From: Eunapius fragilis
Lineage: Eukaryota; Porifera; Demospongiae; Spongillida; Spongillidae
Reading direction: 5' to 3'
NCBI GenBank assembly: GCA_963681505.1
Contig: OY811988.1
Span: 5,103,607-5,167,606 of the forward strand
DNA: 64,000 nt
Both the position numbers and the translations under genes were made by a program. This document shows, one piece after another, positions 20,019-47,745 of the stretch (the stretch's first letter is position 1; each line of letters starts with the position of its first letter). Under the pieces are notes generated by a model that was not told where the DNA came from, did not search any database, and saw only the letters and a program-made list of their open reading frames with translations.

Positions 20019-20019
20019 T

Positions 20020-21000
20020 TACGCGATATATAAGCCAGGGTGCACCGCTACGCTGTTTGAGGCTGCCACACCAAATACTTTTTTATGGGTATAAAAATAT
20101 ATAGGCGTGCCCGAAAATATTTCATCGTAGAAAAGAAAAAAAAAAACACCTCAGTATAGCGTGTGACTATGCGGAAAATATACGAACAAACAAACATGGA
20201 TAATAAGAGAGATCCATAGACATACTATTATGTCTACAGAATTTTAGAAGGGGGGGGGGGGGGGGGGTTTGCTTATGATTATTATGCATTACTGCCTGCT
20301 GTCAATACCGATTTCTAATTATTCGCAATTATATCATGGTCGAAACAAACATGCATACAACGATACCTGCAATGATTAACTAAATACACGTAGCCATACC
20401 CCTTTTTGACGACTCCAACGGGAGGGGGGGGGGGGGGGGTTGGAACCGTAAACCCCCCCACCCACCCCCCCCCCCCCCCCCTCTAGCCGCCCCTGGTAAT
20501 ATATATTGATGGTAATACATATTGTTGGCATTGATGAGGAGTATAACGAAGAAAGCCCCGCCTCTTTCCCGACCAACCATGCCTATATGGTTGTGATATA
20601 CCCAGTGAAAAGGAACTATATAGAGTTCAGATGTATTGCTTTTATTTTTGCATGCACAGCAATAAAATTGCCGTCAGTATATACAGTTGCAATGACTTCT
20701 AACCGAAGTTTACGAAACTAAAAGGTTGTGTACAATGCCTATACCGGTGCAATACGAGCGGGATATCATAAACACGCGCAAATATATTTGCCAATTGAAC
20801 AAAAATACACAGCGGTGACGTAATCCACCCGCAGCTGCTTCGCTACATCATAATATCTATGGCTACATGCATGAGTCGATTCAACAGTAGCAGACCCAGG
20901 ATCCACTCATTGTCAAGTGAGAATATTCTATATAGTTTACTGCATGGACACTGAATATTATAATATTGCTGGGCTCCCAAAGATATTATGCTCTGGCGTC
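20020..21000. other. upstream region of the CABIT-SAM gene with G and C runs
   Basis: No gene. G runs at about 20250-20267 and 20419-20433 and a C-rich segment at 20452-20482 ending in TCTAGCCGCCCCTGG look like a decayed relative of the CAGGGGCGG MITEs. The region immediately above 20018 is the probable promoter of the minus-strand gene, but I see no clear core motif. Confidence 0.45.
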
Positions 21001-21004
21001 CTGA

Positions 21005-21465
21005 ATGTTTAGTAGGGTGTGTAAACAAAAGGCAGAAAGAGGTATTAGTAAACACAAAAAGTTACACTCACCTTCTCAAGACAACATAGCGTGGGACACA
21101 GCAGCTGTAATGAATGAACTTACTAACTGGAATTCAGGAAAAAAGATCGATTGGTCTGAACTGGCTAGAAAATATGGTGTACCAGGAAAAGAACGGGGGT
21201 CAAGTAATAAAAGAGTATGCTAAATGTTATGGAATCAACACATACAATCTCGATGGGTTACAGGAAAATAGAGTTTGTAGAGCAGAGTTCCTATAAGCAG
21301 CACAGTTGAACAGGTAAAACAGAAGTGGACAAGTGACATTGCAAATGGAACTTACTCAATTGGTGAAACATGTGCTCCAAAAACCTTGACAGTGATGCGT
21401 GCAACAGGTGGCAAGGTGATAGAAAAAAATGAGGTCATTCACAGTAGGAAAGTACCCCTAACTGA
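21005..21465 (+). pseudogene. degenerate fragment of a repeated ORF with a WSELARKYGV motif
   Basis: Pieces in shifting frames read IDWSELARKYGVPGK, GGQVIKEYAK-like text, then SIGETCAPKTL and SRKVPLTEI. I recall related sequences (NWS-LAR-YG, GGQ-VKE, KIPL-EIR) in unnamed proteins of sponges and cnidarians, probably transposon-borne. Frames are broken after about 21230 and at 21294, and the fragment stops at the edge of the minus-strand retroelement copy at 21468. Confidence 0.4.
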
Positions 21466-21467
21466 AA

Positions 21468-22312
21468 TAAGCATGAGCTGCTGCCCCTGAGGAAGTACTG
21501 GCATCTCTTAAGGTGGCAGGAGTGAGGGGTGAAGTGACCGTTATATCAAAGGCAGCAGGCTTGCCTCTATCCCAACCCTGAACCAACACATCAGCTGGAC
21601 GTGTGTTGATATGATCTCCAGATAGGCCATATCCCACTTCAACCCTTACAAGCAGGTGAGCTCGGTGGCAGAGTTCAGCAAAGGTGTCCCTAAGGTGGTT
21701 GTGACGGGTGACCACATCTCCACCATGCCGACACGAGGTTGCATGGTGGCCAAGAGGGTCAAGTACGGCCCCAGGGCAGAAGGGGCAAGAAGAAGCAGTT
21801 GATGTGTCGAGGCCTAGCCACCATCTGATAGCCACTTGGCACTCTTCTGAATCTAGGTGCATGTTCAAGCCTACAGAGGGGATGGCAGAGACCCAAGAAC
21901 TTGCATGGGGGGCAGATACTGACAACATGCGAGCTTTGTTGGCTGGTGAAGCAGAAGAAACTAGAACTTGGAACATGTGGGTGTCAAGTTTAAAAGATAG
22001 GACTTTCTGTTGAGGGGGAGTGTTAAGCACTGCCTCCACAGTAAGAGAATCCTGTGGAGAAACCTGGGCGTTAAAATGGGAAACAGCTTGCTGTAGGTGA
22101 ATGTTGTCTGGGCTCCCTAAGTCTGAGGCTGGTGAAGAGATAAAGGCGCCGCAGCACATGAGTGAAGAGAGAGGGAGCGAAGGCCTAGCCCACCTAGCTT
22201 AGGGCAAAGTTGAGCTTGATGCCACTGAGTGTCAGGCACATCTACTGCTAGGCAAGAAGCAAAGCAATGTCTCACCTCTTCATCGAACAGCATTAGGGAG
22301 TCAGATCAGAGG
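21468..22312 (-). pseudogene. retroelement copy B: 3' RT-thumb/endonuclease fragment, truncated at both ends
   Basis: Minus-strand text runs from a LMLFDEEVRHCF-like segment (about 22295) through GGLGLRSL, WWLGLDTSTASSCPFCPG, the knuckle C-x2-C-x9-H-x4-C, GGDVVTRHNHLRD and the endonuclease core RPADVLVQGWDRGKPAAFD. It stops at AAAHAY (about 21468), well short of the normal C-terminus. A frameshift lies near 22160. The 5' end meets (ATT)n/(TA)n at 22317-22350. It belongs to the QGWDRGKPAAFD subfamily. Confidence 0.8.
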
Positions 22313-22369
22313 CTTGTTTTTATTATTATTATTATATATATATATATATTGTGATACAAAATACTATTA

Positions 22370-23870
22370 TAGGACATAAAAAACACACGAAAACATGACC
22401 AAAACTAAATAACACTTCAGAAATAATCTTGAGGGCAATATCTGGACATTATAGCCCTCACATTAGCCCTTACTAGGTTCAGATTGAGCCGGCCATACAG
22501 CTCTGATAGAATGGCAGATTTGGGCCTTGATGATGTTATGGCTAGGCGAGAGGCTAGACTCGAAAACGACTCCATAGCCTCTTTCCCCCTATGCGGCATA
22601 CGACTCAACCACAAGAGGGATACATAACCAACCTAACTCGCTGCACTTCACATCATTGGCCTCATGCTTTCTGAGCTCAGTGGCTTGCGCAGCTGCTCCA
22701 GCAGTTACTCCCGCTTCAGACATAATGTTTGAGTTCAGCGGAGAGGTAACTGATATGTCACAGGCTGCCATTTTCCCCAGAGCCCAGTTGGAAATGAGGA
22801 CATCTGCTGGACGAGAGTGGCTGTGATCTGGTGTAAGGTTGCACCCAGCTTCTACTTGTACACTAAAGTGGGCTCGCCTACATGTTTCTGCCAATATGTC
22901 CCTCAACCTGTTGTGGCGGAATACCACATCCCCACCCTGCTTACAAGTAGTGGCATGATGCCCTAGGGGATCCAACATTTTATCTGGGCAGAGTGCGCAA
23001 ACAGAACCCTCAGCTGTGTCAAGCCCTAACCACCACTTCAGTGCTGTCTGAAATACTGGAGGGTCTAAATGTAAGCCTTGACCTTCAGATGGAATAACTG
23101 TCAGCCATGAGGAAGCATGTGGGGAGGATACTGATAAAAGACACGCTCTGTCAGCAATCAACAGAGAACCCTGATGAACTCTGAATAAATTATCGTCCAA
23201 GATACTGGAAAGAGTCTTCTGAGAAGGTAACTTTTCAAGTACCGATTCGATCTGTATGATGTCTGACTGATGAACTAAAGAATTAAATATCTCCAAGGAC
23301 TGGAGGAGGTGTACATGAGAATTTGAACCCAGGCCAGAGAAACATAACGATGCAATAAAGGCTGCTGGTGCATGATGAGACAGGGAACGCAGCCCAAGGC
23401 CTCCTCGGCTGAGGCTCAGCTGGGCCTGCTTCCACGCAGCAATGGATGGATGCACACCTGTGCAAGAAGTGAAACATTTTTGAACATCTTGATCAAATAA
23501 CTGCAGAACAGACTGAGAGAATGAAGGGGGTACAGCACAAGCAAGATGGACAAGTTTACAGTAACCACCACAAAGCCGGAGGAGTACAAGAGCCACTTGG
23601 GGGTCGACTTGACCAACATCATCCAGTCTCTTAGGTAGAACACCTGCCTCAGACCTTTTCCTATCCAGGACAGCCCTACAAAAGACAGAGTCACCAATAG
23701 GTATTCCCAAGATCTCAAGATTGGGTTCACTAGACTGTTTCATCTCCATTGGGAAATGAGTCAAACACCCACTGCTAAAAACCTCACACTTCTTGATGTT
23801 CACGTGAAGGCCAAGTGGGGGACCAAGCTCAATGAGCAAGCTGAGTGCTTTCCTAACAAGCAAAGCATAC
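22370..23870 (-). pseudogene. retroelement copy C: 5'-truncated, long open C-terminal half
   Basis: A 428-codon open frame begins within the reverse transcriptase after the catalytic site (RKALSLLIELGPPLGLHVN) and continues through EILGIPIGD, VDPQVALVLLRLCGGYCKLVHLA, LSRGGLGLRSLSHHAPAAFIASL, the zinc knuckle (CALCPDKMLDPLGHHATTC), HNRLRDILAETCRRAHFSVQ and RPADVLISNWALGKMAACD. A separate frame finishes the C-terminus (SELYGRLNLNLVRANVRAIM at about 22425-22510), so there is a frameshift near 22600. RT motifs A-C are absent. The segment 23870-23918 between the truncation point and (ATT)n is not element sequence that I recognise. Confidence 0.85.
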
Positions 23871-23918
23871 ACCAATGTAAACTAAACAAAAAGTCTATTC
23901 ATGAGCTAACTCCCCTAA

Positions 23919-23945
23919 TTATTATTATTATTATTATTATTATTA
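23919..23945 (+). repeat. (ATT)n junction between head-to-head copies C and D
   Basis: About nine ATT units separate the 5' side of minus-strand copy C from the 5' end of plus-strand copy D. Confidence 0.95.
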
Positions 23946-25340
23946 TACAACCGTTCGACTCCAGCATCCCTACATCAACTACACCTAATTTTGAAATCCT
24001 GGGGGCACCAATTGGAAGTCCAGAATTTTGTGGTGAATACATTGAGGCAAAGAGTTAGCAGGCTTGTTCTCTTCTCCATCTTTTACCTCAGCTATGTGAC
24101 CCTCAAGTATCCATCTTGCTACTTCGCCACTGTGCTAGCGTTTGTAAGCTGTCCCATTTAGGTCGCTCAATTCCTCCATGTGATTCTTCTCTAAGGCAGT
24201 TTATGCTCTTCGATGAAGATGTCCTCCACTGTTTGGAAGAATGTGCAGCCTTTGAACTTACACTTTCAGCCACCAAATTACGGCATGGTGGTCTTGGATT
24301 GACATCAGTCTCTAACCACTCCTCCAGTGCATTTATTTCATCTTTGTCCAATGCTATTGATGTCACCAGTGCTCCAAATGCTTCCCATCACCTCAAACAG
24401 GCAATAGCACTCTACAACACAAAGATCAACTCTGCTGATGCAATCACATTTGAATCAGTGACTAGCTCTCCTCCACAGCAGCACCATCTATCAGGCAAAA
24501 TAGAAGACAATTCCTTTCAGACTTTTCTTATTAACAGCACAGTCTGTACCAGAGCAAGACTCAGAGCAGTATCAGCCAGTAATGCTAATCCCTGGTTGAG
24601 AGCTATTCCTTGCATACACAATGACTTAGCTTTGGAGCCTCAAGAGATGCAAGTCCTATTAAAATGGTGGCTAGGTCTACCTGTCTTCTCAGCTGACAGT
24701 AAATGTCCCTTCTGCTCAAGTGCCCTTGATCCAGATTGCCACCATGCCCTTACATGTCGTTCTGGAGGGGACGTCATTTCACGGCACAATAAACTGCGAG
24801 ACTGTTTTGCCAATCTGTGCTCCAAAGCATGCTTATCTCCTCAACTGGAGAAAGGTCCAGGCTTAGACTTTTCTAGGCCAGCTGATGTGCTGGTACCAAA
24901 CTGGTCCCTCTCCAACCCTGCAGCCTTTGACCTGAAAGTCATTCATCCGCTTAATACGGACTTGATTCTGGAAGCGAGCTTGGCTTCAGGTAACTCTGCA
25001 GAGGTTGGTGAGATTGGAAAGCATGCCAAGAACAATCAGATGTGTGCAAGATTGGGCTGGTCATGTATTCCATTAGTGGTGAAGGTCTATGGTGGTTGGA
25101 GATGTGAAGCCCAAGAATGCTACTCCAGATTGAGAAAGAGGCTAGCCATGCAAGTGGGAATATGTGAAACTGAGGCACTGAGCCAAATGTACTGCCTGCT
25201 GGGTGTCACACTGATGAGGCAGAATGCAAGAGCCATTCTCCTCAGATGTGCCCGTGCTCCCCTTCTTGAGTATTAAACTTAATTGTGTTATGTAATGAAA
25301 TTATTATTATTGATGATAATAATAATATAGGAATACAATA
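23946..25340 (+). pseudogene. retroelement copy D: third subfamily, 5'-truncated, one nonsense codon
   Basis: After (ATT)n the frame gives FEILGAPIGSPEFCGEYIEAKS, an in-frame TAG (24056-24058), then an uninterrupted frame to 25276. This contains LLRHCASVCKLSHLGRSIPP, GGLGLTSVSNH, LKWWLGLPVF, CPFCSSALDPDCHHALTC, HNKLRDCFANLC and RPADVLVPNWSLSNPAAFD, and ends ARAILLRCARAPLLEY. The C-terminal segment (GGWRCEAQECYSRL) differs from the other copies, marking a separate subfamily. The 3' flank at 25298-25330 is ATT/AAT-rich. RT catalytic motifs are missing through 5' truncation. Confidence 0.85.
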
Positions 25341-25389
25341 TTTAGGAGGAGAAACAACATGCATGAATTATTAATAAATCATGCTACAG

Positions 25390-27890
25390 TTCAATAAACT
25401 TTAAGATGGGAGCCACCTGGAAAGGATTGCTGTCGCATTTGCCCTCACCAGATGCAAGTTGAGCCTGCTATACAGGTCAGACAGCACAACCGACTTTGGT
25501 TTGCCCGATATGATGGCGACGGGAGGCAAGCATCTTAAACGAGTCCATGGCTTCCTTTCCCCAAGCACCATAGGACTCCGTGACCAGAGGTACACAATAC
25601 CAGCCCAAAGCATTGCATTTGGGGTCATTCTCATTATGCTTTCGCTCTTCAGTGGACAAGGCGGCTGCCCCAGCTGACAATCCCGCTACTGAAACAATTT
25701 TGGGGTTAGCGGTGATGTCACTGAAATATCAAAGGCAGCTGGTTTGCCAAGGGCCCAGTTGGGTAGCAAAATGTCTGCAGGGTGTGAATGGTCATGCTCA
25801 GATGTAAGATTGCTACCCATCTCCACCTTTACGCTCAAGTGGGCTCTACGGCAAGTCTCCGCCAACACATTGCGCAGCTGGTTGTGTCGGGTGACTACGT
25901 CTCCTCCTTTTTTGCACGTTGTAGCATGATGACCAAGGGGATCTAATGCACTGTTTGGGCATAAGGCACACAGGGAACCATTGGAGGTGTCCAAACCAAG
26001 CCACCACTTGACTGCTACCTGGAATACTGAGGGCTCAAGATGAAGGCCGAGACCTTCAGATGGGACTACAGTTAGCCATGAAGCAGCATGTGGAGACGAG
26101 ACAGACAACAAACGAGCCTTATCAGCAACAGAAGAAATGATCAGGATGTTATTGAACTGATGGATGTCAATCTTGCTCGAAAGTTGATTTTGATGGACTG
26201 AAGATGAAACTAAACCATCAGACTGAATTGTATCAGAAGGAGATACAGACTCATTGAATGTCTGTATTGCATCAGAGAGATGGTGGTTGGAAGGGGAGCC
26301 ATAGCCAGAAGAGAATAAAGATGCAATGAATGCTGCAGGTGAGTGTAGGGACAGAGACCTCATGCCCAACCCTCCTCTGCTTAGGCTTAGCTGGGCCTGC
26401 TGTCAGGCAACATCAGTTGTATCAACTGCAGTGCATAGTGAAAAACTTCTACGAACATCTTCATCAAAAAGCTGAAGAGAAGTCATAGCAAGTAAAGGAG
26501 GAGTAGCACGGGCTAGATGTGCAACCCGACAAAATCCCCCACACATACGCAAAAGAGTTAAAGCAACCTGAGGGTCCACTGCACCAACTTCCTCAAGCCT
26601 TTCAAGCAAGGGTCTTGCCTCAGACCGCTTCCTGGAGATAAAGGCCGAGCAAAAATCTTTATCATTATTGGAATTCCCAATATCTCAATGTTGGGATTGT
26701 GAGACTGTTTCATGTCAGTTGGGAACAAGCTCAAATCACTCTGGCTGTAGACCTCACATTTTGACATATTCACGAACAGGCCAAGTGGTGGACCAATACC
26801 TTTGATCAATGCCAGTGCCCTATGCACCGCAGATATGGGACCAGCCAGCACTCCATCATCATGATACCAGGCATGGCATTGAAGATTCGAACAAACTTCA
26901 TCTTTAGATATTTCAGAAATCACTAAGGTCAAAAAAAAGAGGACCAAGTGGATCTCCTTGCTGAACTCCAGACTCAGACTGCAGATGACCCATAGTGTGC
27001 CATAACAAAGGATGTAGTCCATAGCACCAACAGGCCCAAGGGAGTAACTCTGGAAAGTGATTTTTAACTTCAACCAAGAGTGCCTGATGTGACACCACAT
27101 TAAATGCGTTCTTCAGATCTACCTTAAGAACAGCAAATTCAGGATCAGACCAATGCTCCTCAATACACCCCCTTAGCCCATGGGTAATTTTCTCTGTGCC
27201 AAAAGGGCATGCCACGCCAAATTGATGCGGTTGAAAGAACTCTGCTGCCTTGCACTTCACTGCAGCACAAAGACACTTTCCCGTCAGGTGACGGAGGGTT
27301 TCTCCAACAGCAATGGGCCGAACATCCAGGGGGCAATCAGGCTTAGATTTATTCAATGCAGTCAGGTTTCCGCCAGCGAGGAAGACAGACAATTGAGATG
27401 GGGCTTTTCCTGATGCAAGAAGATGAACAACTGCCTTGAGAGAAGACAGAATCGCTGTCTGAAAAGGAGTCTCTGCTGCATCAATGAGATGCTGGACACG
27501 GAGGCCAGTAGGCCCGGCAGCAGTGAGTTTAGGAAATGATCTTAAAATTGCCATTATGTTAACATTACTGAGAATGCTAGTATCAAATTCAGGTGCTTCA
27601 GGTGTGGTGGGTTGTTCACACTTGGGGTGCTTTGAAAGTAGCAACTTCCATGTCTCTTCAGAATTTGGTGCAACACCTGTTGAAACTAATACCTGACATG
27701 CTTTGCCATACAGACCATCTTGTGCAAGGGAGATTGCTGAGGCCACCTGTTGTTTTGAAGAGCTGTTCTTGGCATGATGCAATCGGTTGGATGGTGAAGC
27801 ACGGGCCTTTGCCATCCTCCACAATTCACTGAAGCTATCCTTTAACCAACGGTCACAAAGAGCCTCAATGGGGACTGGTTTATTATGGCG
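25390..27890 (-). pseudogene. retroelement copy E: RT, knuckle and endonuclease, several frameshifts
   Basis: Minus strand, 5' end at (ATT)n (27892). The open segment 27824-26913 holds FPKLTAAGPTGLRVQHLIDAA, DVRPIAVGETLRHLTGKCL, FGVACPFGTEKI, VDLKNAFNVVS (RT motif A) and SGVQQGDPLGPL (motif B). A frameshift near 26925 leads to WYHDDGVLAG (motif C; His replaces the Leu of the other copies), GPPLGLFVN and EILGIPI. Further shifts at about 26660, 26400 and 25685 separate the LRMCGGFCRVAHLARATPP block, the knuckle/HNQLRN/ILLPNWALGKPAAFD block and the C-terminus. The N-terminal zinc fingers are lost. It belongs to the PNWALGKPAAFD subfamily. Confidence 0.85.
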
Positions 27891-27891
27891 G

Positions 27892-28200
27892 CGCTATTAT
27901 TATTATTATTATTATTATTTTTATTTATTTATTTTTTTATTTACGTATTATTATTGAAATACACGAAACAAGACAATACATGAATGGAATAAATGCTCAT
28001 ACAGAATTATTATTAATATTGTCCACAAAAAACACCTATAGATGTTCTAAACTACATATTATTATTATTATTATTATTGTGTTATGTAATGAAATTATTT
28101 TTAAAGGATAATATTTTTATTTTAAATGCATACACAATTATTATTATTACTATTATTTCCATTCTTTTTTATATTTATTATTACATAATTACATGAATAC
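27892..28200. repeat. (ATT)n-rich junction block with 3'-end-only retroelement fragments
   Basis: ATT runs at 27893-27918, 28062-28078 and 28138-28155 enclose short non-repeat pieces. One of them, around 28023-28060 (CACAAAAAACACCTATAG through TTCTAAACTACAT), is repeated at 30088-30117 in the 3' untranslated part of copy G. These are therefore retroelement 3' ends of a few tens of bases between ATT arrays. Confidence 0.7.
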
Positions 28201-30010
28201 ACGAATATACAGCAGTAAGATAATTAAATGCACCCTACTATAGGTACTAGACAGGGACAAAACACCTGGAGAGGATGGCTGTGGCATTGGCTCTAACTAG
28301 TATGAGGTTCAGCCTCCCATATAAGGCAGCTAGGACCTCAGCCTTAGCCCTGTTGGAGCTAGTTGCAAGGCGAGAAGCCAGAAGAGAAAAAGACTCCATT
28401 GCTTCTGTCCCCCAAGCACCATATGCCTCAACCACCATGGGGACGCAAACCCACCCTAGTTCCTTCCATTTGGCATCATTTTCTTCATGCTTCCTTTCCT
28501 CGGTAGCTCTGGCAGCCTGACCTGCTCCGAATCCCACTTCAAGTAAAATATTGGAGTTAAGCGGTGACGTCACAGACAAGTCAAAGGCTGCTGGCTTACC
28601 CAAAGACCAGTTGGGTACTAGGATGTCTGCAGGGCGAGTGTGGCTATGGTCTTTGGAGAGGTTACTTCCTGCCTCCACCTTAACACTCAGGTGGGCACTG
28701 CGACAGGTCTCAGCAAGGGTGTCACGTAGTTTATTGTGGCGGGTTACTACATCTCCACCACGCTTGCAGGTGAGTGCGTGATGGCCAAGGGGATCAAGTA
28801 CTTTCCCAGGACACAGAGGACAAATTGAGCCACATGAGGTGTCTAGGCCCAGCCACCACTTAATGGCCACCTGGAACTCTGAAGGCTGGAGATGAAGGCC
28901 TAGCCCCTCGGAGGGAATGACTGACACCCAAGATGCAGCGTGAGGGGAGGAGACAGAGAGAAGGCGTGCTCTATTTGCGGCAGAAGATTGCTCATAGAGT
29001 GTATTAAACAGATGGTAGTCAATCTTGCAGGACAGCACCTTTTGATGGAAAGGGGATATCAACACCTCCTCTATGCTGACCGCCTCAGATAAAGGTACAA
29101 GTGAGTTAAACAACTCAACTGCATGGATAAGGTGTTCTTGGGACAATGGACCAGCACCAGAGGAGCTCAGAGAGGCGATGTAAGCAGCTGGTGAATGCCG
29201 ACTCAGGGAGCGCATGCCCAGGCCACCCCTGCCTAAGCTGAGTTCTGCCTGTTGCCAGGCCTGATTGGAGGTGTCCACTGCCGTGCACTTGAAGAAGGTA
29301 GCTCGGATGTCATGATCAAAGGCCTCAAGGGCTGATATGGCCTGGGAGGGTGGCGTGCCACGAGCAAGGTGGGCCAGCCTGCAGAATCCCGCACATTGAC
29401 GTAGGAGGGAAAAGACCACATGTGGGTCGAATGCTTTGGCCTCATCATGTTTCTCCGAAATGAAGGTGGCGCAAAAAGCCTTGTCACCAATCGGGATGCC
29501 CAAAATAACAATATTAGGGTGAGTTGATTATTTCATTTCTGGAGGAAAAGGACTGACATCATGTTTGCTAAATATCTCACATTTAGGAAAGTTTACAATG
29601 AGACCATTAGGAGGACCAAACTCTTGTATGATAGAGAGAGCTTGAAGAACAGCAGACCTGGGACCAGCCAGCACACCATCATCCAGGTACCAGGCATGGT
29701 AGGACAAATCTGCACACATAGAATTAGTGGCGATTTCTGACACTACTTTGTTTAAAACCAGGGAAAAGAGCAGAGGACCAAGAGGATCCCCCTGCTGAAC
29801 CCCTTGTTCCGAATGTAAGCTGCCCAAAGGATGCCACAGAATGGGATGCTGACTGTAACACCAGATGGCCCAAGGGAGCAGCTCAGGGAAGTGTTTGCTG
29901 CACTTTGAGAGGATTGCCTCCCGTGAGACCATATTGAAGGCGTTCTTCATGTCCACCTTAAGGACAACGAAGTCATCATCCAGCCAATACTTATTAACAC
30001 ACGCTCTTAT
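28200..30010 (-). pseudogene. retroelement copy F: RT motifs A-C to C-terminus, one stop codon and a small in-frame deletion
   Basis: One frame runs from about 30010 to 28247 on the minus strand and is interrupted only by TAA at 29528-29530. It holds VDMKNAFNMVS, GVQQGDPLGPLLFSLVLN, WYLDDGVLAGP, GPPNGLIVNFPKCEIFS, ILGIPIGDKAF, LARGTPPSQA, GGLGMRSLSRHSPAA, CPLCPGKVLDPLGHHALTC and RPADILVPNWSLGKPAAFD, and ends YGRLNLILVRANATAILSR. About 13 residues are missing between EKHDEAKA and FDPHVV relative to copies C and H. Frame preservation over nearly 600 codons suggests recent insertion. Its 5' truncation point abuts the A/T-rich tail of copy G. Confidence 0.88.
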
Positions 30011-30024
30011 TATTTTTATTTTTT

Positions 30025-30228
30025 TTAATTTTTTAAAATTATATTTTATCAATTAGAATACAGAGAATAAAAGCACTATTGCACACAAAAAACACCTATA
30101 GATGTTCTAAACTACATAGCTTCTACCTAGAATGGATCTAGCCACTGAACGCACCAGGGACATATTAAGGCGGCTGTAGATGGTGTGGAGGGCCCAAGAC
30201 TTTGAAGTTATTATTATTATTATTATCA
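30025..30228 (-). pseudogene. retroelement copy G: last ~30 codons plus 3' UTR, ending at (ATT)n
   Basis: Minus-strand 30200-30120 reads TIYSRLNMSLVRSVARSILG then stop, the C-terminus seen in copies H and I. It is followed by about 100 bases of 3' untranslated sequence and an AAATAATAAG-type tail that touches copy F. The 5' truncation meets (ATT)n at 30205-30225. It is therefore a very short 3'-end insertion. Confidence 0.8.
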
Positions 30229-30256
30229 TGGATAATAATTAACATCAAAATGGATA

Positions 30257-33200
30257 ATGCCGTGCTGTAGATGCAACGGAAGGAACGCCGTATGTAAGGG
30301 CTGTTCGTGCGTGAGGAAGAAGATTGCGTGCTCGGATTGCTATCCTTGCCGTCAAGGGAAGTGCATGAACTTAACCACGTCGTCCCAACAATTATCTAGT
30401 ACCTCGGCGCTACCACTTCGAATTCTCTCTCCGACATCCGTAGCTTCTAATTCTGATGATCTGCCTCCTCAAGTCTCCGCATCACCGCAACTTCTTTCTC
30501 CATTATCACATTCACAGCAGCTGTCCGCATCCCCATCGCTGCCTTCTACACATTCACAGCAGCTGCCCGCAATTCCACCGCAGCAGCCGCATGCAGTTCC
30601 TATTTCTCCGCAATCACCACCCGCATTGTCGCTGTGCTCCTCGTCGCATCATTCTTCTCCACCGCCCCGACAACCTTCATCCCCGACTCCATCTCCTGAG
30701 CAGCCAATTTTACTGCGGGTCCTCCAACAGCACCTCGATCACGAGCTCTCATTACCACCCACCCCAGGATTTTCCTCCACCACACCACAGACCTCTTCTT
30801 CAGGACTTTCCTCCACCACACACCAGGCTTCTTCTTCAGGTCTCTCCTCCACCACACCACAGGCTTCTTCTTCAGGACTTTCCTCCACCACACACCAGGG
30901 CTCCTCTTCAGGACATTTCTCCACCACGCACCAGACCCTTTCTTCAGGAATTCCCTCCAGCAGGAAGCAATGCACTGTTGATGGTTGCCCTGCACAGATA
31001 GCTCCATCCATGTGGCACAACCACATGACCCTCCATGCCAAAGGTGCTCTTCCTGGGAGTGTACCATCAGAATGGCTGAGGGTCCAAAATGTATTTGTTT
31101 GCCCTAGCTGTTCCCAGCTGGTTTCTAACTCCCGGCAAGCTTCTCACCTGCGCCAATGTCCTATGAGGAGCATCACATCAGTTTCTTTACAGCGGCCTGT
31201 TCCAACCCCCTCTTCAGATATCAGTCACAACCTTCCTACTTTTGAGGAAGTGTGCCAACTGAACCACCCAACTCTGCGGTACATCCCAGCTAAAGCCAGA
31301 CCAGCTTTTGCAAAAGCTGTCTCATCTGCTCTAAGAGATGTCCTACTAAAGAATACTGAAGATGCATGGTTAAAGCTCTTCATGCTCCCAAAGTGTGTCC
31401 TCCCTTCCTTGAAGCACAAAGGGAGCCACAATCCACATGTAGCAATAGAGTCTCTTTGCAAAATGTGGTTGAATAATGACCTATCCACTCTTTGGACAAT
31501 GGCAAAAAGTCGGGAGAACAACAGCATCACAGAGGAGGCCACTATCGGCAAGAATTACAGAAGAGTGATTAATTCTGCAGTTTCTCTCGGCCGCTCAGGA
31601 TTGACAGGCAAAGCTTGCCGGATGCTATTATCAAGTGGCATTGCCCCCAATAATGACACAACCTGGCGCTTGTTGCAGGCCAAGCATCCAGCCTGTCCAC
31701 CTCCAGTGACCCCAAATGCTACCTCTGAGCCTGTTACGCTAGGTCCCACCTTTAAAATACTGAAGATCTTGAGATCCTTCCCTAAAGGTACCTCAGCTGG
31801 TCCTTCAGGACTCTCTGTTCAGCACCTTTTGGATGCTGCATCTATTCCCCTTCACACATCAATTGGTGACTCTCTTAAGGGCATTGTGAATCTTATGGCT
31901 TCTGGAAAGGTCCCTGAGCCAGTGGCAACATTTTTGGCAGGCGGCAGGCTAATTGCACTGAACAAAGGTAAGGAGGGTAACCCACCAGATGTTAGGCCGA
32001 TTGCAGTGGGGGAAACATTGCGTAGGCTGACAGGGAAATGCATCTGTGCCATCCTAAGGGACAAGATCTCCTCATTCTTTCAGCCCTCACAATTTGGAGT
32101 GGCTTGTAAAGCAGGTGTAGAGAAGATTGTGCACAGCTTAAGGAGATGCATTGATGAAAACTGGTTAAGTGGCGACTTTGTAGTGTTCAAGGTGGATATG
32201 TCAAATGCCTTCAATATGGTATCGAGGCAGGCAGTTTTGGATGAGTGTGCTACTTTCTTTCCAGAGCTTCTCCCATGGGTCTCGTGGTGCTATGGATCTC
32301 ATACATCATTGTGGCACCCTATGGGCCAGATAAGTTCCCAGTCTGGTGTCCAGCAAGGTGATCCACTGGGCCCAATGCTGTTTGCCTTGGTTCTCCATAA
32401 GCTTGTTACCAGTATTGATGCAGATGATGATTGTCTCCAGCTGCTTCTGGAAGCTTGGTATCTTGATGATGGGGTTCTAGCAGGGGAGAGGTCTGCAGTA
32501 ATACGTGCTCTGCACCTCATAGAAGAGCTTGGTCCTCACTTGGGGCTTTACATCAATTTTTCCAAGTGTGAACTTTTCAGTAGGAGTGGTAATTCACTAT
32601 TTCCACCAGGGGTGAAGTCGTCTCTCCTTCCCAACCTGGACATCCTAGGAGCCCCAATTGGAGATTTTGTCCACTGCTCTCGCTTCATTGCTGAGAAATG
32701 TGCAATGCCCAAGATCTTGCTTAAGGCTCTTGTGGATGTCTCTACAGTTGACCTTCACGTGGCCTTTTCGCTTCTTCGTATGTGTGGAAGTTACTGTAAG
32801 TTAGTGCATCTAGCCAGAGCCACTCCTCCAAGCCATTGTGCTGACTATCTTAAGCTCTTTGATGAGGTGGTTGGGTCTTGACACCTCTGGAGGTTCTCTG
32901 TGTCCACATTGTCCTGATATTGCCCTTGACCCTCTAGGTCATCATGCAGCCTCCTGCAGACATGGTGGTGATGTGGTTGCAAGGCACAATCACTTGCGGG
33001 ATATCTTTGCTAACTTTTGCCGCCAGGCCCACCTTTCTGTGAGGGTTGAAGTTGGGCATGGCTTAGCTAGGGACCATGTTAACTCTCGTCCTGCGGATGT
33101 CCTTGTTCAGGGATGGGACAGAGGAAAGCCTGCGGCCTTTGACGTTACTGTTGCTTCACCCCTTACACCAGTAACCCTCAACAATGCCAGTACCTCTGTG

Positions 33201-33479
33201 GGAGCAGCAGCCTATGCTGCTGAACTGAGAAAGCATGTGGCCAATGACACCAGATGCCAGGAGTTGGGGTGGACATGTATCCCCCTAGCTGTAGAAACAT
33301 ACGGTAACTGGGGGAAGGAGGCCCAGAGTGTTTTCTCCCGTCTTGCCTCTCTACTTGCCATCGGCCAGGCCATTCCCAAACCCAAAATGCTGGGTGACAT
33401 CTATGGCCACCTCAACATGTCACTAGTGAGGTCAGTGGCTAGGGCCATCATGGGGAGAGAAAATGTCCGGATAGGTTAG
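30257..33479 (+). pseudogene. retroelement copy H: near-complete RLE-type non-LTR retrotransposon with an internal deletion
   Basis: The longest copy. ATG 30257 opens an 874-codon frame. Domains in order: N-terminal Cys cluster (residues 3-37: CCRCNGRNAVC, GCSC, CSDCYPCRQGKC); a Ser/Thr/Pro/Gln-rich linker (40-235) with five 12-residue repeats; a C2H2-like finger (CTVDGC...H...H, about 237-258); a C-x2-C-x11-H-x3-C finger (about 282); then RT from about 505 with SAGPSGLSVQHLLDA, FGVACKAGVEKI, VDMSNAFNMVS, GVQQGDPLGPM and AWYLDDGVLAG. It breaks at LKLFDE (32865): about 0.5 kb encoding the thumb region is deleted and the frame shifts. The rest (32838-33479 frame) resumes at RWLGLDTSGGS with the knuckle CPHCPDIALDPLGHHAASC, RPADVLVQGWDRGKPAAFD and SLVRSVARAIMGRE. 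RT plus this knuckle and an R-P-A-D...D core is the layout of R2-like elements with a restriction-like endonuclease that perform target-primed reverse transcription. Both flanks are ATT/AAT repeats. Confidence 0.9.
30766..30957 (+). repeat. 36-bp tandem repeats inside the copy H linker
   Basis: Five 36-bp units encode 12-residue repeats of the type LSSTTHQASSSG. The multiple-of-three unit keeps the frame. It is part of the disordered linker between the Cys cluster and the zinc fingers. Confidence 0.9.
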
Positions 33480-33584
33480 AAGAACTGTAGGTTTTTTAGC
33501 GGCATCTATTGTAAGTTAGTTATCCTTATAATATTGTAATTGTGTTAGTCCTTTTATCCTGCTGTAACTGTATTCTGTTGTCAA

Positions 33585-33760
33585 TAATAATTATTAAATA
33601 ATAAATAAATAATAAATAATAAATAATAATAATAATAATTTTAAACAGTAGCACGTATCAATAACATGAACAAAATGACATCACGTGGGAGTCCTAAACT
33701 AAAGTTTTTAACCCTCTGGGGTCTGGGTGCCATTATTATTATTATTGGAATCAACACACC
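33585..33760. repeat. AAT/ATT arrays enclosing a 3'-end-only fragment
   Basis: Copy H ends in AATAAATAATAAT-type repeats (to 33640). The next 90 bases (AAACAGTAGCACGTATC and on) recur at 35913-35955 and end at (ATT)n 33731-33746, followed by GGAATCAACAC. Both pieces look like minus-strand 3' UTR ends of the same retroelements, cut to under 100 bases. Confidence 0.65.
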
Positions 33761-34208
33761 GAGTAAAAGTATATAACAGATACACACTATCTACACATTA
33801 TGTATGCACTAGCGTGTCCCCGTGAAAAATCACGGGCTGATTATACGTCTCGCTGTTATTCGTCGCGCTATTCATTTGCCATATGAACAGTTGGTCTACC
33901 TCCTAGCTCCTCTTTTTTTACCGGCTGTTTTAACCGCATATATAATCTATCACCTGTTCTAACATACCGTTACTACGCAACCTCTATAACATGCCCGCGC
34001 AAATTTCAGATAGTAACTACATGTTCTCGGCCGGTACGATGAGACTTGAGAGTGAACCACAATAGCGTTGCTTTTATTCTTTCGGCACTTATGCAGTTCC
34101 CCCCTCCCCCCACTATGAATTCAAGAAATATTGAAAAATTTTAGATATTAAATGTGAAGTGGAAACCAGCTGTCATTGCAACCGCCTTTTGTGTGGGAGG
34201 TGGTCGTT

Positions 34209-34310
34209 CCTATTGGTAGCTAGGTACGCGTACATACCTAGCAACCAATAGGCGCTAGGCCGAGTATATAAATGAGTTACGCGGACGTACGTACGTACGA
34301 TGGAAATTAT
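34209..34310 (+). promoter_or_regulatory. promoter-like block: palindromic CCAAT/ATTGG pair, TATA box, ATG
   Basis: A 44-bp near-palindrome (CCTATTGGTAGCTAGGTA ... TACCTAGCAACCAATAGG, 34209-34252) places ATTGG and CCAAT boxes in opposite orientation. TATATAAA follows at 34265, then repeated GTACGTACG and an ATG near 34300. Spacing is like a class II core promoter. The short frame after the ATG stops within about 15 codons, near a retroelement insertion. It might be the promoter of a displaced gene or of a transposon. Inference only. Confidence 0.4.
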
Positions 34311-34365
34311 AGTATTAGATAAACAGCCTAACAACCCACTCCCATAGACTCCCTACCCATTATAA

Positions 34366-34690
34366 AATTATTATTATTATTATTGGAATACATGAATGCA
34401 TACATGTATACTATTTATTTTAATGAATCTACAGTTCTACTTACAAACACATCTAATCACCCTACAGTTCCACTAACCTCCCCTTGGACAGCTTCCCTTC
34501 CCATGATGGCCCTTGCCACAGACCTCACCAGAAACATGTTGAGGCGGCTGTAGATTTCAGACAACATTTTGGGTTTGGGGATGACTTGGCTGATAGAAAT
34601 CAGAAAAGCAAGCTGGGAAAAACACTCTGAGCCTCCTTCCCCCAATTGCCATACGTTTCCACAGCTAAGGGAATACATAACCATTATTGG
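34366..34690 (-). pseudogene. retroelement copy I: last ~75 codons and 3' UTR
   Basis: Minus-strand text (with a frameshift near 34650) gives PLAVETYGNWG, then ISQVIPKPKMLSEIYSRLN and LVRSVARAIMGREAVQ, the end of the copy-H subfamily. The 3' UTR runs to (ATT)n at 34367-34385. The 5' truncation is at about 34687, next to ATTATTGGGAATA. Confidence 0.8.
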
Positions 34691-34710
34691 GAATATAAAT
34701 GCATGTACAG

Positions 34711-35873
34711 GATTATTATTATTATTAACACATACACTAAGTACAACTAAACTACTAATGGCAAGTTAGGAGGGTGGAAGCTCCCTGGCCAGGATGGCTC
34801 TAGCAATGGACCGAACCAGGACCACATTCAAACGACCATAAATTTCAGCCACAACTACCGCCTTGGGGGAGGACTGGGGAATGGCTAGGAAGGATGCCAG
34901 CCTGGAGAAGGTATCATGTGCCTGCTTGCCCCAATTGCCATAAGTCTCCACTGCCAATGGGATGCAGGACCAGCCCAACTCTTGGCACTTGGGTCCATTG
35001 GAGTGGAGCTTGCGGGTCTCTGCTGCCAGGGCTGCCGCACCAGCCTGGTGACATGAATCACCTAAGATGACAGAGCAGAGTGGTGAGGTAATGGTCAGGT
35101 CTAGTGCCGCAGGTTTGCCTCTGTTCCAGCCAGCAATGAGGATGTCAGCAGGTCTGGTGTGGGCAAGATCTCTGGTAAGGCCATGACCTCTCTCCACACT
35201 CACACTTAGGTGGGCACGATGACAAAGGTCAAATACCTCATCTCGTAGACGATTATGGCGTGTGACCACATCCCCCCCATGCCTGCAGGTCACAGCATGG
35301 TGACCAAGAGGATCAAGACAGTATCGGGGCAGAATGGGCACACGGACCAACCAGAAGTATCTAATTCCAGCCACCACCTAATAGCCATCTGGAACTCATT
35401 CGACTCCAGGTGCAAGCCCAAACCAGGGGAAGGGACCACTGATAGCCAAGAGGAAGCATGAGGAGCAGCCACTGACAGGAGGCGAGCTCTGTTAGCTGGA
35501 GAGGAGGATTCCAACAAGATGTGGAAATGTTGTGTTTGGATCAATCCTGACAAGACCTTCTGGTGAATGGGAGACTCCAGAGCAGAAATTGACTGTAATG
35601 GCATTAAAAGGGGAGACATAAACATTGCCACTGCCCGTTGTAGGTGGATATTATCAGCCTTGCCAAAGCCGGAGAATGACAGGGAGGCAATGAACGCTGC
35701 AGCAGCATGGTGAGAGAGGAAGCGAAGACCCAGACCCGGACATCCTAGGTGCTCCAATTGAGGATTATCTACACTGTTCTAAGTTTATCGCTGGGAGGTG
35801 TGCTGAGTCTAGGAAGCTACTCTCCGGTCTAGTGGATGTTGCTGCAGTCGATCTCCAGGTAGCAGTTTCATTA
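34711..35873 (-). pseudogene. retroelement copy J: endonuclease half with an inverted 5' segment
   Basis: Minus-strand 35737-34766 encodes GLGLRFLSHHAAAAFIASLSFSG (joined pieces), WWLELDTSG, a damaged knuckle with a frameshift near 35300, HNRLRDEVFDLCHRAHLSV, RPADILIAGWNRGKPAALD, YGNWGKQAHDTFSRLASFLA and LNVVLVRSIARAILARE. At about 35738 orientation flips. Plus-strand 35738-35873 reads DILGAPIEDYLHCSKFIAG then VDLQVAVSLL, which is the part of the element normally just upstream. About 0.2 kb between the two parts is missing. The outer end abuts (ATT)n (35876), and the 3' end lies at (ATT)n 34711. This is the arrangement produced by twin priming. Confidence 0.85.
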
Positions 35874-35875
35874 TT

Positions 35876-35975
35876 AAATATTATTATTATTATTCCAAAT
35901 AACATTACAACATTAAACAGTAGCACGTATCAATAACATGAACAAAATGACATCATTATTATTATTATTATTATT
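35876..35975. repeat. ATT arrays enclosing a 60-bp 3'-end fragment
   Basis: (ATT)n at 35876-35892 and 35953-35976 enclose a piece sharing the 40 bases starting AAACAGTAGCACGTATC with 33642-33683. Confidence 0.75.
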
Positions 35976-35976
35976 T

Positions 35977-36719
35977 TATTTATAATGTAAATACAATTAT
36001 TAAACACATTACACACACAAACGGATCTAGCTCTATGACAGTGGGATAATCCTAGAGAGGATGGCTGTAGCATTGGCACGAACTAGATGGACATTAAGCC
36101 GGCCATAAATGTCATTCAGCACAACTGACTTGGACTTGCATGTAGAGGTGGCGAGTCTGGAGGCAATTGATGAAATGATAGAAGAGGCCTCATCGCCCCA
36201 AGCTCCATACGATTCTACCACCATGGGGACACATACCCATCCAAGTTCCGAACATTTGGGATCATTAGCTTGATGTTTCCTCGCCTCTGTGGCCTGAGCA
36301 GCAGACTTGGCCAAGACTCCCGCTTCCAAAAGGGTTAAAGGGTTTAGCGGAGACGTGATGGAGACATCTAGTGCTGCTGGTTTGCCTAAGAACCAATTGG
36401 ATAGCAAGATATCAGCTGGGCGAGTCTTATTGCGATCATGTGTGAGATTGTTGCCCACTTCCACCTGAACACCTATGTGTGCACGCCGACAGGTCTCCAC
36501 CAGGATATCTCTGATCTTGTTGTGGCGGGAGACCACATCTCCACCAAATTTGCAGGTGACTGCATGGTGGCCAAGGTGATCAAGTACACCGGGACACAGG
36601 GTACACTGAGAGCCCTCTGAAGTATCGAGGCCAAGCCACCACTTTACAGCAATCTGGAAAACAGGTGGATCTAGATGGAGTCCAAGGCCCTCAGAGGGAG
36701 TTACAGACAGCCAGGCTGA
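35977..36719 (-). pseudogene. retroelement copy K: endonuclease fragment
   Basis: Minus strand from (ATT)n at 36720: LSVTPSEGLGLHLDPPVFQ, WWLGLDTSEGS, a slightly shortened knuckle region (CTLCPGVLDHLGHHAVTC), then an open 167-codon frame with HNKIRDILVETCRRAHIGVQ, RPADILLSNWFLGKPAALD, YGAWGDEA and YGRLNVHLVRANATAILSR. The 3' UTR ends at (ATT)n 35953-35976. It belongs to the same subfamily as copies C, E and F. Confidence 0.85.
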
Positions 36720-36851
36720 ATTATTATTATTTTTATTATTATTTTATTAAAATTGTCAAATATACATGACATACGAACCAAATACGAGTAATAAACGTGT
36801 TAATTACCTATACAGTACACATATTAATTATAATTGCAACTACCAAATCTA

Positions 36852-38393
36852 CACCAGAGATAGGGATTGGCAACGTGTCACGTGAGCCATAGATATTTGT
36901 AATTTTATGTGTGCCATCCTACCTGCTGTGAATCACACGTACATCGAAGTGTGAAAGGGGTACGAAAATTCGCTGGCGTTTTGGAACAAAGATGGATAAG
37001 CACGTTTCACTGTAGCACGCAAGCAGGTTATTGTATATATGTATTTTAACAAGTTTTTCAGGTCGAGAGTTCTCCGCGTCATTTTATTTTTGTCCAAGTT
37101 CAGCGAAAAATTCCAATGTTGGGTGCGCTCTTTTTTGTGGGACAGTATCTAGTGAATCGACGGGTTGTTCTTTCTGAAATCCGTTACCCCAACTTAAAAA
37201 TGGTTGTATTTTAGCGTGCCATTCTTGTTTTGCCAATAACGCGCTCAGAACCACCCGTATAACATATCGAGTATGCAAATCTTGTGGGACAGTGTAGTCA
37301 TTGCTAAGCAAGCTAGTACTATAAAACCTATACTGGCTTGTAGCACATTCCTTACATTTTAGCGTCCAAGTATAGTGATGTGCACCACGCGTTTGGTTGA
37401 CAACCTGCATTTTTTCAAAGGGAATGTGAATTTATTCGCAAAAGAACGGCGAGCGCCCACAGCCTCGCGAGAATAGTCTGTTTCTTGATCGTTGAATACT
37501 ACCACTAGCCTGCTCTATCCAGCTTTTATTACCGTTGACAAGAGTGTGTTGTTCCCTTCTTGAATGTGTATAAAAGTTTAGCATGCAACCACTACTGCTT
37601 AAAAGTCCAATTGGTTTCAAACGATCCTACTCTACTCCTCACACCCATCTCGAATGTAACCTTAAAATACCCCCTACGTATACACAATCCCATTTGTCAT
37701 CTGTGGTGAGGGGATGGGATTTATTGTTGCTTGGAAGAGTGTGTGTGTGTGGGGGGGGGGGGGGGGGGAAAGGGATTCAACAGGAGCAGTTGTGATGTAA
37801 TGGAATGGGTTCAGGAGCTGGTGCACTGTGAAGGGGGTCTGGATCGAGTGGAATTTGGATAATGCATGGCTGCACAAAAGGAAAAACAGTCCTGTGACTC
37901 TCATCTTCCCTCCTCCCACTCTTTACTGTAACTATAAATACCGCCAAATTAGCAACCCCCCCCCCCCCCCAACACCTCCACATGCCCAAACCCCACTTCG
38001 TTTACTGGAACAGGCCATTACATGTTACTAAGGTTCACAGTGCGCCAAATTATGGTGGCTATGTATCAATGCAATTAGTGCTGCATGGTCGTGAAGCCTC
38101 CAGGATATAAATATGACTTTTGTAACATGTAAGTTAGCAAGTATTAAGCTAGTAAACCATATCACCCAAAGGTCAATGCCAATCCATTCCTATAGGATTA
38201 TAATTGATTGAGGAATAAAGTAAAACTGGTTGTCAGATCAGTGGACTTATGTCTAGCTTTTCATACTCAAAGTGCCTGTACAAGGTTGCCTGGAAACTTA
38301 GGGGAACAGGAAATTTCTATGGATTCACGTGCGGATGGCACGCGTTAATTAGCGTTAAGTGAACTCGTTGCCAATCCCTCTATATATTATCTC
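36852..38393. mobile_element. candidate DNA transposon remnant with GGGATTGGCAACG termini
   Basis: GGGATTGGCAACGTGTCACGTGAGCCATAGATATTT at the left (36862 on, given here as one end) is matched in inverse at the right: CACGTG, then CGTTGCCAATCCC ending near 38382. The subterminal CACGTGA-CCATAGA-ATTT block is also mirrored. Inside are G and C runs (37750, 37956) and minus-strand frames at 37084-37410 and 37432-37620 that are weakly coding-like (TWTLKCKECATSQYRF). No transposase motif is recognisable and target duplications are unclear. Confidence 0.5.
37084..37410 (-). CDS. 108-codon ORF inside the transposon remnant, unrecognised
   Basis: The frame starts at MQVVNQTRG, carries a CKEC pair (possible half zinc site) and ends PTLEFFAELGQK. 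Codon and residue use look protein-like. Another open stretch lies just upstream on the same strand (37620-37432), separated by a stop. It might be part of a transposon-encoded DNA-binding protein. No function can be assigned. Confidence 0.3.
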   Translation of the reverse strand: MQVVNQTRGAHHYTWTLKCKECATSQYRFYSTSLLSNDYTVPQDLHTRYVIRVVLSALLAKQEWHAKIQPFLSWGNGFQKEQPVDSLDTVPQKRAHPTLEFFAELGQK

Positions 38394-38439: not shown

Positions 38440-39241
38440 TTGTTTTTACACAAAACCTCTGCTGGTCTAGCCTCATTCAACTTTTGTGGATTTTTGAAAG
38501 ATTCACGAAGTCGTTTGAGACAGCTTTCGGATGTACAGGCTCTTGCATGGTGTTAATCGGTAGAGGGATCTGGGATCCTCCCTTTTCACAGCCACTCCCG
38601 AGTCGCACCCTTCCGCATTGTCACCAGTATGCCCTGCATCCCAATCCCTCAATGCTTTTTTCAGGTTTCCCGCTTTTCTTTCACTACGCGACAGCAGATC
38701 TTGTGCCATTACTCTGTCGTGCGCAACTTCCCATTTCTAGTAGCTGTCTTCACTGCCCAGCCATCTGGCACCGCAGCCGGTAAAATCTAGTCGGGCGGGC
38801 CCTACCACCGCGTTTGGTCGGGTGGTAGGGCGTCAAGCCTACACCAAGATTTGTGCTGCTGCAATGGGCATTGCAGCTCCAATCGAATTGCAGCGTTCAA
38901 GTGGGTTCATTATCACCCAATTAGCGGTTGATGTGAGATAGCCCTACATGTATGGCTTGTAGCCGCTTCTGCCATTTTGGTACGGTGGTGGTAAACCGAT
39001 ATTCACAGCATATATTGCATAACTGTTCTGCACAAATCTTGGTATAGGCTTGACGCCCTACCACCCGACCAAACGCGCGGTGGTAGGGCCCGCCCGACTA
39101 GGTAAAATCGAGGTCCTTCGCTAGCCCATCCTCTTCCGATTCATCTGATTCTTCCGATTTTCCCTCCACAAAGCATCTATCGCAAAGTTCCAAAAGGCTT
39201 TCATCCTCATCTACGTCCTCCGCCTCTTCCATGCCCGCCAT
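38440..39241 (-). pseudogene. acidic ORF interrupted by the 313-bp MITE
   Basis: Minus-strand ATG 39241 begins MAGMEEAEDVDEDE, continues LLELCDRCFVEGK and an Asp/Glu/Ser-rich stretch to DLDFT. There the MITE inserts and its first three bases, TAG, act as a stop. Without the MITE the frame would go on as GCGARWLG and stop soon after. Farther on, another frame (CLKRLRESFKNPQKLNEARP) is coding-like. This looks like the start of a transposon-type or host gene now decayed. Unrecognised. Confidence 0.4.
38788..39100. mobile_element. 313-bp MITE with ~70-bp inverted repeats and 9-bp target duplication
   Basis: The ends TAGTCGGGCGGGCCC ... GGGCCCGCCCGACTA form near-perfect inverted repeats of about 70 bases (including TACCACC, GGTCGGGTGGTAGGGCG and the CAAGATTTGTGC inner end). 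Flanks are exact 9-bp duplicates GGTAAAATC (38779-38787 and 39101-39109). Long inverted repeats with 9-bp duplications are typical of Mutator-like (MULE) elements. No coding capacity. Confidence 0.9.
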
Positions 39242-46190: not shown

Positions 46191-46194
46191 GCAC

Positions 46195-47165: not shown

Positions 47166-47564
47166 TTGCTCTGAAAAATACAGTAATCAATCATGTTGTA
47201 ATTTTTTTTCTCTGGTCTTCACAACTGTACCACTAATCTATTCTAGTCAGGACAATAAGACAGTTTAGTAAACAATTTGAATACGTACAATTGTGAGTTC
47301 AGTACATTAATTGGAATCATAAGCTTGTGTAATACAATACACTGACAAGTTCAAGTTTCTGTTGACTACATATGTGCATTTCGAAATTGATGCAGCAAGA
47401 AGCAAAGTAATTTTAAAAGCTGCCCCAGCCAACCCTAGAATATGCAGGGTGTCCACAAAAGAACCGAATGTGTTTAAATCAGTATAACTCAAAGATTGAA
47501 ATTAATTAACAACTTGATTCATTAATATTCATTAGGTAAATAAATGACTAACAATTAGGGCTTG

Positions 47565-47737
47565 TCGTGCCCCTGAACTTGAAAGAGATTGTGGGCTCAC
47601 CTCAACAAAGGACAGAACACGTCTGGCTGATGTGTTGGTGCCTAACTGGTCTCTCTCACGTTCAGCAGCATTTGACCTGAAGGTCATCAATCCGCTCAAC
47701 TCAAACTTTTTATTGGGAGCGAGCATGACATCAGGTT
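47565..47737 (+). pseudogene. retroelement piece N2: endonuclease core only
   Basis: The frame reads RLADVLVPNWSLSRSAAFDL, then KVINPLNSNFLLGASMTSG, closely like copy D (RPADVLVPNWSLSNPAAFD). It is about 50 codons long and ends at the pogo-like MITE. It is probably the other end of piece N after a large deletion, or a separate D-type copy. Confidence 0.75.
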
Positions 47738-47745
47738 GAAAGGTA

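Follow-up and report, generated by a model that had tools for sequence, protein, structure and literature searches.

Retrotransposons nested among AAT repeats in the sponge Eunapius fragilis: probable targeting of a microsatellite by some element families

The analyses presented here suggest that a stretch of the Eunapius fragilis genome (the window, 64,000 nucleotides of contig OY811988.1, positions 5,103,607 to 5,167,606) carries, between its positions 21,000 and 36,750, a nest of non-long-terminal-repeat (non-LTR) retrotransposons of the restriction-like-endonuclease (RLE) kind. Specifically, RLE elements of some families, above all that of the copy named H, would nick (AAT)n, and AAT-rich nests would grow from the resulting insertions. 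Judging from the sequences, we give the class assignment and this account jointly a probability of about 0.83. AAT at both junctions of the copies, empty sites, an orientation bias, clustering and a difference between the H family and that of a second copy, E, were observed directly. The genome searched comprised 218.9 Mb in 24 contigs from the assembly of one individual, and L-numbers denote the flanks fetched for H-family, E-family and other copies.

The protein of H contained an RVT_1 domain (4.5e-16), that is, a non-LTR-type reverse transcriptase (RT). Its best matches among PDB sequences (phmmer) were R2 proteins, although weak (top 1.5e-5), and the A1 profile retrieved nothing relevant from them. 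An alignment of eight rows revealed a conserved C..C..HH..C motif in the C-terminal part, with R-H-N, P-A-D and D invariant; the CCHC zinc and endonuclease residues were invariant or nearly so, the degenerate copy G lacking the first two cysteines. The H and E motifs presumably resemble those of the HERO clade. The element plan consisted of a single open reading frame (ORF) without LTRs, with 5′-truncated copies having one common 3′ untranslated region (UTR), and the two families were about 54% identical in the endonuclease part. Copy H is itself broken by an internal deletion and a frame break (ORFs 30239-32881 and 32814-33479). Three relatives 99-100% identical to it had unbroken frames of 1,231, 1,231 and 1,239 codons, and a fourth, with a frame of 1,242, had a TGA within the match. 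Since near-identical relatives keep open frames of more than 1,200 codons, the H family moved recently. Insertion into 28S rDNA, as in R2, was not the pattern found, the copies lying on most contigs with junctions in AAT or other DNA, although rDNA was not searched for. No hepatitis delta virus (HDV)-like ribozyme was matched by Rfam at E<=1 in 18 loci, mostly 5′ flanks (L146 and L160 are 3′ flanks that extend into the next 5′ end). Element ribozymes may escape Rfam models. Within window positions 20,000-38,000, the only Rfam rows scored below the gathering thresholds and lay in C-rich DNA of low complexity at 20.4 kb.

An N-terminal cysteine cluster (C-x-C-N-G-x-N-A-x-C-x2-C-x-C...) opened several full-length copies (window 30257-30370, L030, L063 and L146, the four rows aligned). 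It had no Pfam match and no PDB match up to E 10, and its single-sequence model was weak, with a predicted local distance difference test (pLDDT) score of 64. We regard it as a candidate DNA reader, and we assume a likeness to CXC domains.

ATT/AAT runs of at least four units numbered 15 in the window, all of them within 21,000-36,750, an interval covering 25% of the window. When the stretch was copied by a first-order Markov model, the mean number of such runs was 0.003, and AAT was alone among ten trinucleotide classes in having them there. Control DNA from the same genome, 20 regularly spaced 10-kb regions on three contigs (3 of the 20 containing relatives of the elements), gave 2 runs per 200 kb. 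A preliminary description of this DNA had named 13 element boundaries as ATT/AAT runs and counted ten or more RLE-type copies. We located a run within about 5 bp of every one of the 13 positions (that at 33,585 starts as a three-unit run, with a six-unit run at 33,622), and at least ten tracts matched the H, E or D proteins, besides several 3′ fragments, each about 50-330 bp long, that lie between runs. Its statement that nearly every boundary is ATT held for the named positions but had exceptions: the first copy (A) has no ATT at its truncated 3′ border near 21,458, two fragments of opposite orientation are fused without ATT near 35,735 and the run at 30,007 is imperfect and A/T-rich. It also mentioned several junctions of (ATT)n with GGAATACA-like sequence. 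The exact (ATT)5-GGAATACA occurred at 34,367, once in the window and four times genome-wide with this one included, and the junctions at 27,947 and 33,732 were merely similar, so that "several" was generous wording.

We then scored AAT units within 40 nt of the copy start, by a script whose output was corrected by eye. After correction, 19 of the 21 resolved H-family 5′ junctions, those of 5′-truncated copies included, had at least three AAT units, and 17 had at least four. The uncorrected script had scored 22 of 28 H flanks (18 with at least three units, 17 with at least four) and 13 of 14 E flanks (one and one), the copy start not being reached in six H flanks and one E flank. Among the H flanks, L138 was dropped (its alignment broke inside the copy) and L132, where the script had overrun into a neighbouring H fragment, was shifted to its own start beside three AAT units. 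Among the E flanks, L086 was omitted because it stopped short of the copy start. L084 and L098 were shifted upstream, copy E being deleted there; L084 then has (ATT)3. The sample omits the near-identical duplicates L090 and L099, L038 was off target, and H-family matches of at least 94% identity outside it include C1:7385994, C7:4732048, C1:8013380, C13:4985713, C2:5704119 and C8:190438. In 39,840 control windows of 40 nt, at least three AAT units occurred in 0.35% and at least four in 0.03%; in the 1,904 A+T-rich ones, the values were 3.6% and 0.5%. The sense strand at 18 H 5′ junctions read AAT in 17 and ATT in one (L031).

Similarly, AAT lay within about 40 nt of the start in 12 of 18 full-length relatives of other families resolved by eye (L044, L048, L050, L051, L052, L055, L057, L058 and L060-L063), out of 20 flanks, two of which (L053, L054) end short of the element end. 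Among truncated copies of further families, AAT was present in L040, L042 and L101 and absent from L102 and L103, L100 not being counted either way. For ten AAT-flanked copies, the DNA preceding the run (at most 220 nt) was compared with the nest and with flanks L025-L163. Six had no match (L037, L042, L050, L052, L127 and L133), three matched 3′ parts of other elements (L029, L033 and L128) and L055 matched a unit also present in L077. The 5′ run may thus be a neighbour's tail in many nests, but not always.

At the other end, at least four AAT units lay within 60 nt of the H 3′ UTR in 18 of 23 scored copies and at least three in 21 (26 were given, 3 without an anchor); the sense strand showed AAT at 15 ends and ATT at 3. 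The exact H 3′ end occurred at 42 places genome-wide, with (AAT)4 within 30 nt at 21 distinct starts (37 rows). When both flanks of the AAT copies C5:3393101 and C2:8700563 were compared, the longest stretch in common was AAT itself; the comparison lists the longest stretch only and is compatible with a very short duplication outside AAT. By eye, different families (L064, L065, L070 and L121) have in common a 3′ block like TTATTCC-ATTCATGTATTCTCTTGTA, possibly a template signal that they share.

Empty and filled AAT sites were found side by side in the tails of another repeat, R, which adjoins L026, an H copy on C3, and L072, a different element. R is a long interspersed nuclear element (LINE) unrelated to the RLE copies, with an RT domain (2.5e-10) and an (ATT)n end, and its marker occurred 30 times at no more than one mismatch. 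We read 18 R tails, 16 of them distinct after the near-identical pairs L164/L169 and L172/L174 were merged. In nine (L164, L166, L167, L168, L171, L172, L173, L176 and L179), bare AAT of 9-39 bp was followed directly by DNA without element similarity. In six (L026, L072, L165, L170, L177 and L178), an RLE-type copy sat inside the AAT run, that in L072 being recognised against L046 and L128 and that in L177, a 71-bp fragment of 80% identity, being the least certain. Without the two tails found through their insertion, 4 were filled, 9 empty and 1 runless. Since bare and filled tails coexist, the AAT repeat precedes insertion, and other retroelements too supply AAT targets. Units like GATTAGGGCCACG or GAGGACCACGTGG were also seen by eye between AAT runs in L055, L060, L066 (about 600 bp), L077, L120 and L142, and are perhaps another element using the same AAT sites.

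According to the mechanism that we propose, the protein of some families, that of copy H above all, would nick the ATT strand within (AAT)n, and the end of the element RNA, next to AAT units, would pair with the nicked (ATT)n strand. Target-primed reverse transcription would follow in (AAT)n, as for Dong, and copies would emerge flanked by AAT on both sides, with AAT preferred on the sense strand, full-length or 5′-truncated. Each insertion would leave AAT at both sides, with a net gain of repeats, and the (ATT)n tail of R would spread further sites, so that later insertions would adjoin earlier ones and nests would grow. Clustering was marked: 44 of 150 listed copies had another copy within 5 kb, against a mean of 1.0 for random placement, a figure somewhat inflated by clusters that are duplicated segments (C8). 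On C6 (L027), AAT-rich DNA alone separated two near-identical H copies in head-to-tail order. The earlier idea of a locus that feeds itself was right in outline, given the clustering and the head-to-tail copies in each other's AAT tails, with two corrections: the specificity belongs to some families only, and LINE R is a further source of sites. Separately, paired matches at C8:4470284-4506838 indicated an inverted duplicate of a whole element cluster.

The nests could instead stem from end-to-end template jumps or tandem duplications, several RNAs being copied serially at one site and joined by AAT microhomology. Many head-to-tail 5′-truncated fragments, some shorter than 100 bp, with AAT alone between them, and the duplicated clusters (C8:4470-4506 kb) fit such an origin, but the copies of the window nest lie in both orientations and are 44-67% identical to the E protein, and C5:3393101 (L127/L147) sits between two AAT runs with no element similarity upstream. 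We consider it improbable, although it fares best among the alternatives.

Several observations weigh against insertion into AAT by RLE elements. The model of the endonuclease part was of low confidence (pLDDT 45) and did not confirm an RLE fold, and Foldseek with this model returned R2 chains in the listed rows, none of them significant. Two H 5′ junctions (L137 and L083) and those of 6 of the 18 resolved relatives (L045, L046, L047, L049, L056 and L059) lacked AAT, the R tail L175 had no AAT run and 21 of the 42 exact H 3′ ends had no sense (AAT)4 within 30 nt. Moreover, the E group lies mostly outside AAT. Its corrected 5′ junctions had at least three AAT units in 2 of 12 and at least four in 1 of 12; counting L087, whose three units lie just past the 40-nt limit, makes 3 of 12. 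Within 60 nt of the E 3′ UTR, at least four units occurred in 2 of 13 copies and at least three in 6 of 13, with runs farther out in L110 and L114. The exact E 3′ end was found at 49 places, with (AAT)4 at 5 starts (7 rows), and the solitary E copy C14:4371643 had an 11-bp target-site duplication, CATGGTATACT, in ordinary DNA; some of the other solitary E copies tested had no duplication of at least 7 bp.

The contrast between H and E was significant at the 5′ junctions (Fisher p = 4.0e-5 for at least three units and 1.2e-4 for at least four; uncorrected, 4.2e-5 and 8.3e-5), at the 3′ UTR (at least four units, p = 4.1e-4) and at the exact 3′ ends (21/42 versus 5/49, p = 4.6e-5), and AAT specificity holds for some families only. 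The claim that the element family inserts into ATT repeats is therefore to be kept for the H family and several relatives, given AAT at 5′ and 3′ ends, truncated ends and empty R-tail sites, but not for the E group. These data also bear on whether the elements lack endonuclease specificity and use any nick in A/T-rich, easily melted DNA, of which AAT would be the commonest. Such a lack agrees with the A/T-rich DNA other than AAT in which E-family copies and some full-length ones lie (L045, L059 and L093). It is nonetheless quite unlikely, as AAT runs of at least four units occur in 0.5% of A+T-rich 40-nt windows versus 17/21 H copies and two families of one kind behave differently (p = 4e-5). 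Least probable, and already strained, is that the runs are nothing but 3′ tails of the elements, like the tail of the I element, and became 5′ flanks where copies abut others' tails: most H copies do carry AAT at the 3′ end, and where copies stand head to tail, the tail of one serves as the 5′ flank of the next (L027, L033, L128 and L140), but the six 5′ runs listed above follow DNA unlike the fetched elements, random insertion would not hit tails exactly and bare AAT sites pre-exist in R tails.

Targeting of AAT by RLE elements is not new, because Dong (TAA) and other microsatellite-specific elements have been described. According to the available text of PMC3774820, TAA repeats immediately precede the 5′ end of Dong (Bombyx mori, R4 clade), at which the element carries a self-cleaving HDV-like ribozyme, and a test RNA with 7 TAA repeats and a TAA/Dong primer were used. 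The H family likewise lies in AAT (19/21 resolved 5′ junctions), TAA and AAT being the same microsatellite. In contrast to Dong, the E family has AAT at 2/12 5′ junctions, the first in-frame ATG of H lies about 30 nt past the ATT run, H has no Rfam match, and nests and an outside tail donor occur here, neither of which appears for Dong in that text. Some HERO families, a leech family being cited, are also microsatellite-specific (PMC4640811), their microsatellite not being stated in the portion available. The fish element Togen, related to the NeSL and HERO clades, shares this property (same portion of PMC4640811), but its target is (TG)n. In Lepidoptera, 3′ ends of RTE elements scatter microsatellites (available part of PMC2887409), the repeats being a product there and here also a target, and the I element ends in TAA repeats (PMC3747384, in part). 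Titles and abstract openings, with subscription journals and Repbase Reports outside the search, mentioned neither AAT-site nests nor use of another LINE's tail, and we did not find R-tail pads, nests of this type or the family difference in print.

As a tentative extension, with a little less than an even chance of being right, R would seed (AAT)n pads genome-wide in which RLE elements lodge, leaving AAT on both sides, and the nests would be positive-feedback sinks that spare genes, the H/E difference reflecting specificity gained or lost. On this view, no external hotspot would be needed for retroelement nests to arise. The R tails offer natural empty and filled sites, and a single genome allows counts of how targets are supplied and used and of how specificity is lost. 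As H and E are about half identical in the endonuclease part and follow different target rules, the sequence basis of microsatellite targeting becomes testable.

Table 1. Order of element copies and AAT/ATT runs along the nest (window positions).
Position	Strand	Feature	Basis
21458..22299	-	Copy A, RLE-type fragment; 3′ end missing, 5′ end close to ATT run at 22320	E and H2 proteins (tblastn)
22320..22335	.	(ATT)n run separating A from B	run count
22336..23917	-	Copy B, 5′-truncated, ORF 22589-23881	tblastn, ORF list
23918..23946	.	(ATT)n run between B and C	run count
23947..25299	+	Copy C, 5′-truncated, ORF 24059-25276	ORF list, tblastn
25300..25327	.	(ATT)4 and (AAT)4 between 3′ ends of C and D	run count
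25328..27894	-	Copy D, RT and endonuclease parts, 5′-truncated	RVT_1 E=3.3e-7, tblastn
27895..27955	.	(ATT)n and A/T-rich run	run count
27956..28056	-	Short 3′ fragment between ATT runs; 42 bp in common with 30077-30118	sequence comparison
28057..28149	.	Two ATT runs (28057-28078, 28137-28149) and short fragment like 3′ end of C	run count, tblastn
28150..30006	-	Copy E, reference of E family; exact 3′-end pattern at C18:5131804	ORF list, tblastn
30035..30207	-	Fragment F, element 3′ part only	match to H2 aa 177-218
30208..30226	.	(ATT)n run at 5′ end of H	run count
30227..33582	+	Copy H with complete 5′ end, Cys cluster, RT and endonuclease	RVT_1 4.5e-16
33583..33639	.	(AAT)n, 3′ junction of H	run count
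33640..33731	-	3′-UTR fragment of other element family (same sequence in sense in L041)	by eye
33732..33746	.	(ATT)5	run count
34367..34384	.	(ATT)6 then GGAATACA, 3′ end of minus-strand copy	exact pattern, run count
34385..34711	-	3′ fragment, 79% complementary to 3′ part of H	sequence comparison
34712..34727	.	(ATT)5	run count
34728..35735	-	Copy G, 5′-truncated, right border approximate	tblastn
35709..35876	+	RT fragment (H aa 791-846) joined directly to G, no ATT run between	tblastn
35879..35894	.	(ATT)5	run count
35895..35954	-	Very short 3′ fragment; 43 bp shared exactly with 33641-33683	sequence comparison
35955..35975	.	(ATT)7	run count
35976..36719	-	Copy I, 5′-truncated, endonuclease part, ORF 36033-36743	tblastn, ORF list
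36720..36744	.	ATT-rich run, right end of nest	run count

Within the nest, the 43-bp repeat at 33641-33683 and 35913-35955 was considered as a long target-site duplication and rejected, because L041 carries the same sequence in the 3′ UTR of another family (by eye). Two more divergent relatives lay outside the nest at 46147-47787 (about 36% identity) and 12624-13370 (about 24%), without AAT runs of four units nearby. Elsewhere in the window, an inverted repeat at 38787-39101, with arms of about 70 bp that are 96% identical, resembled a miniature inverted-repeat transposable element, and long satellite arrays with units of 40, 50, 26 and 12 bp occupied 55313-58604 and 59841-62827.

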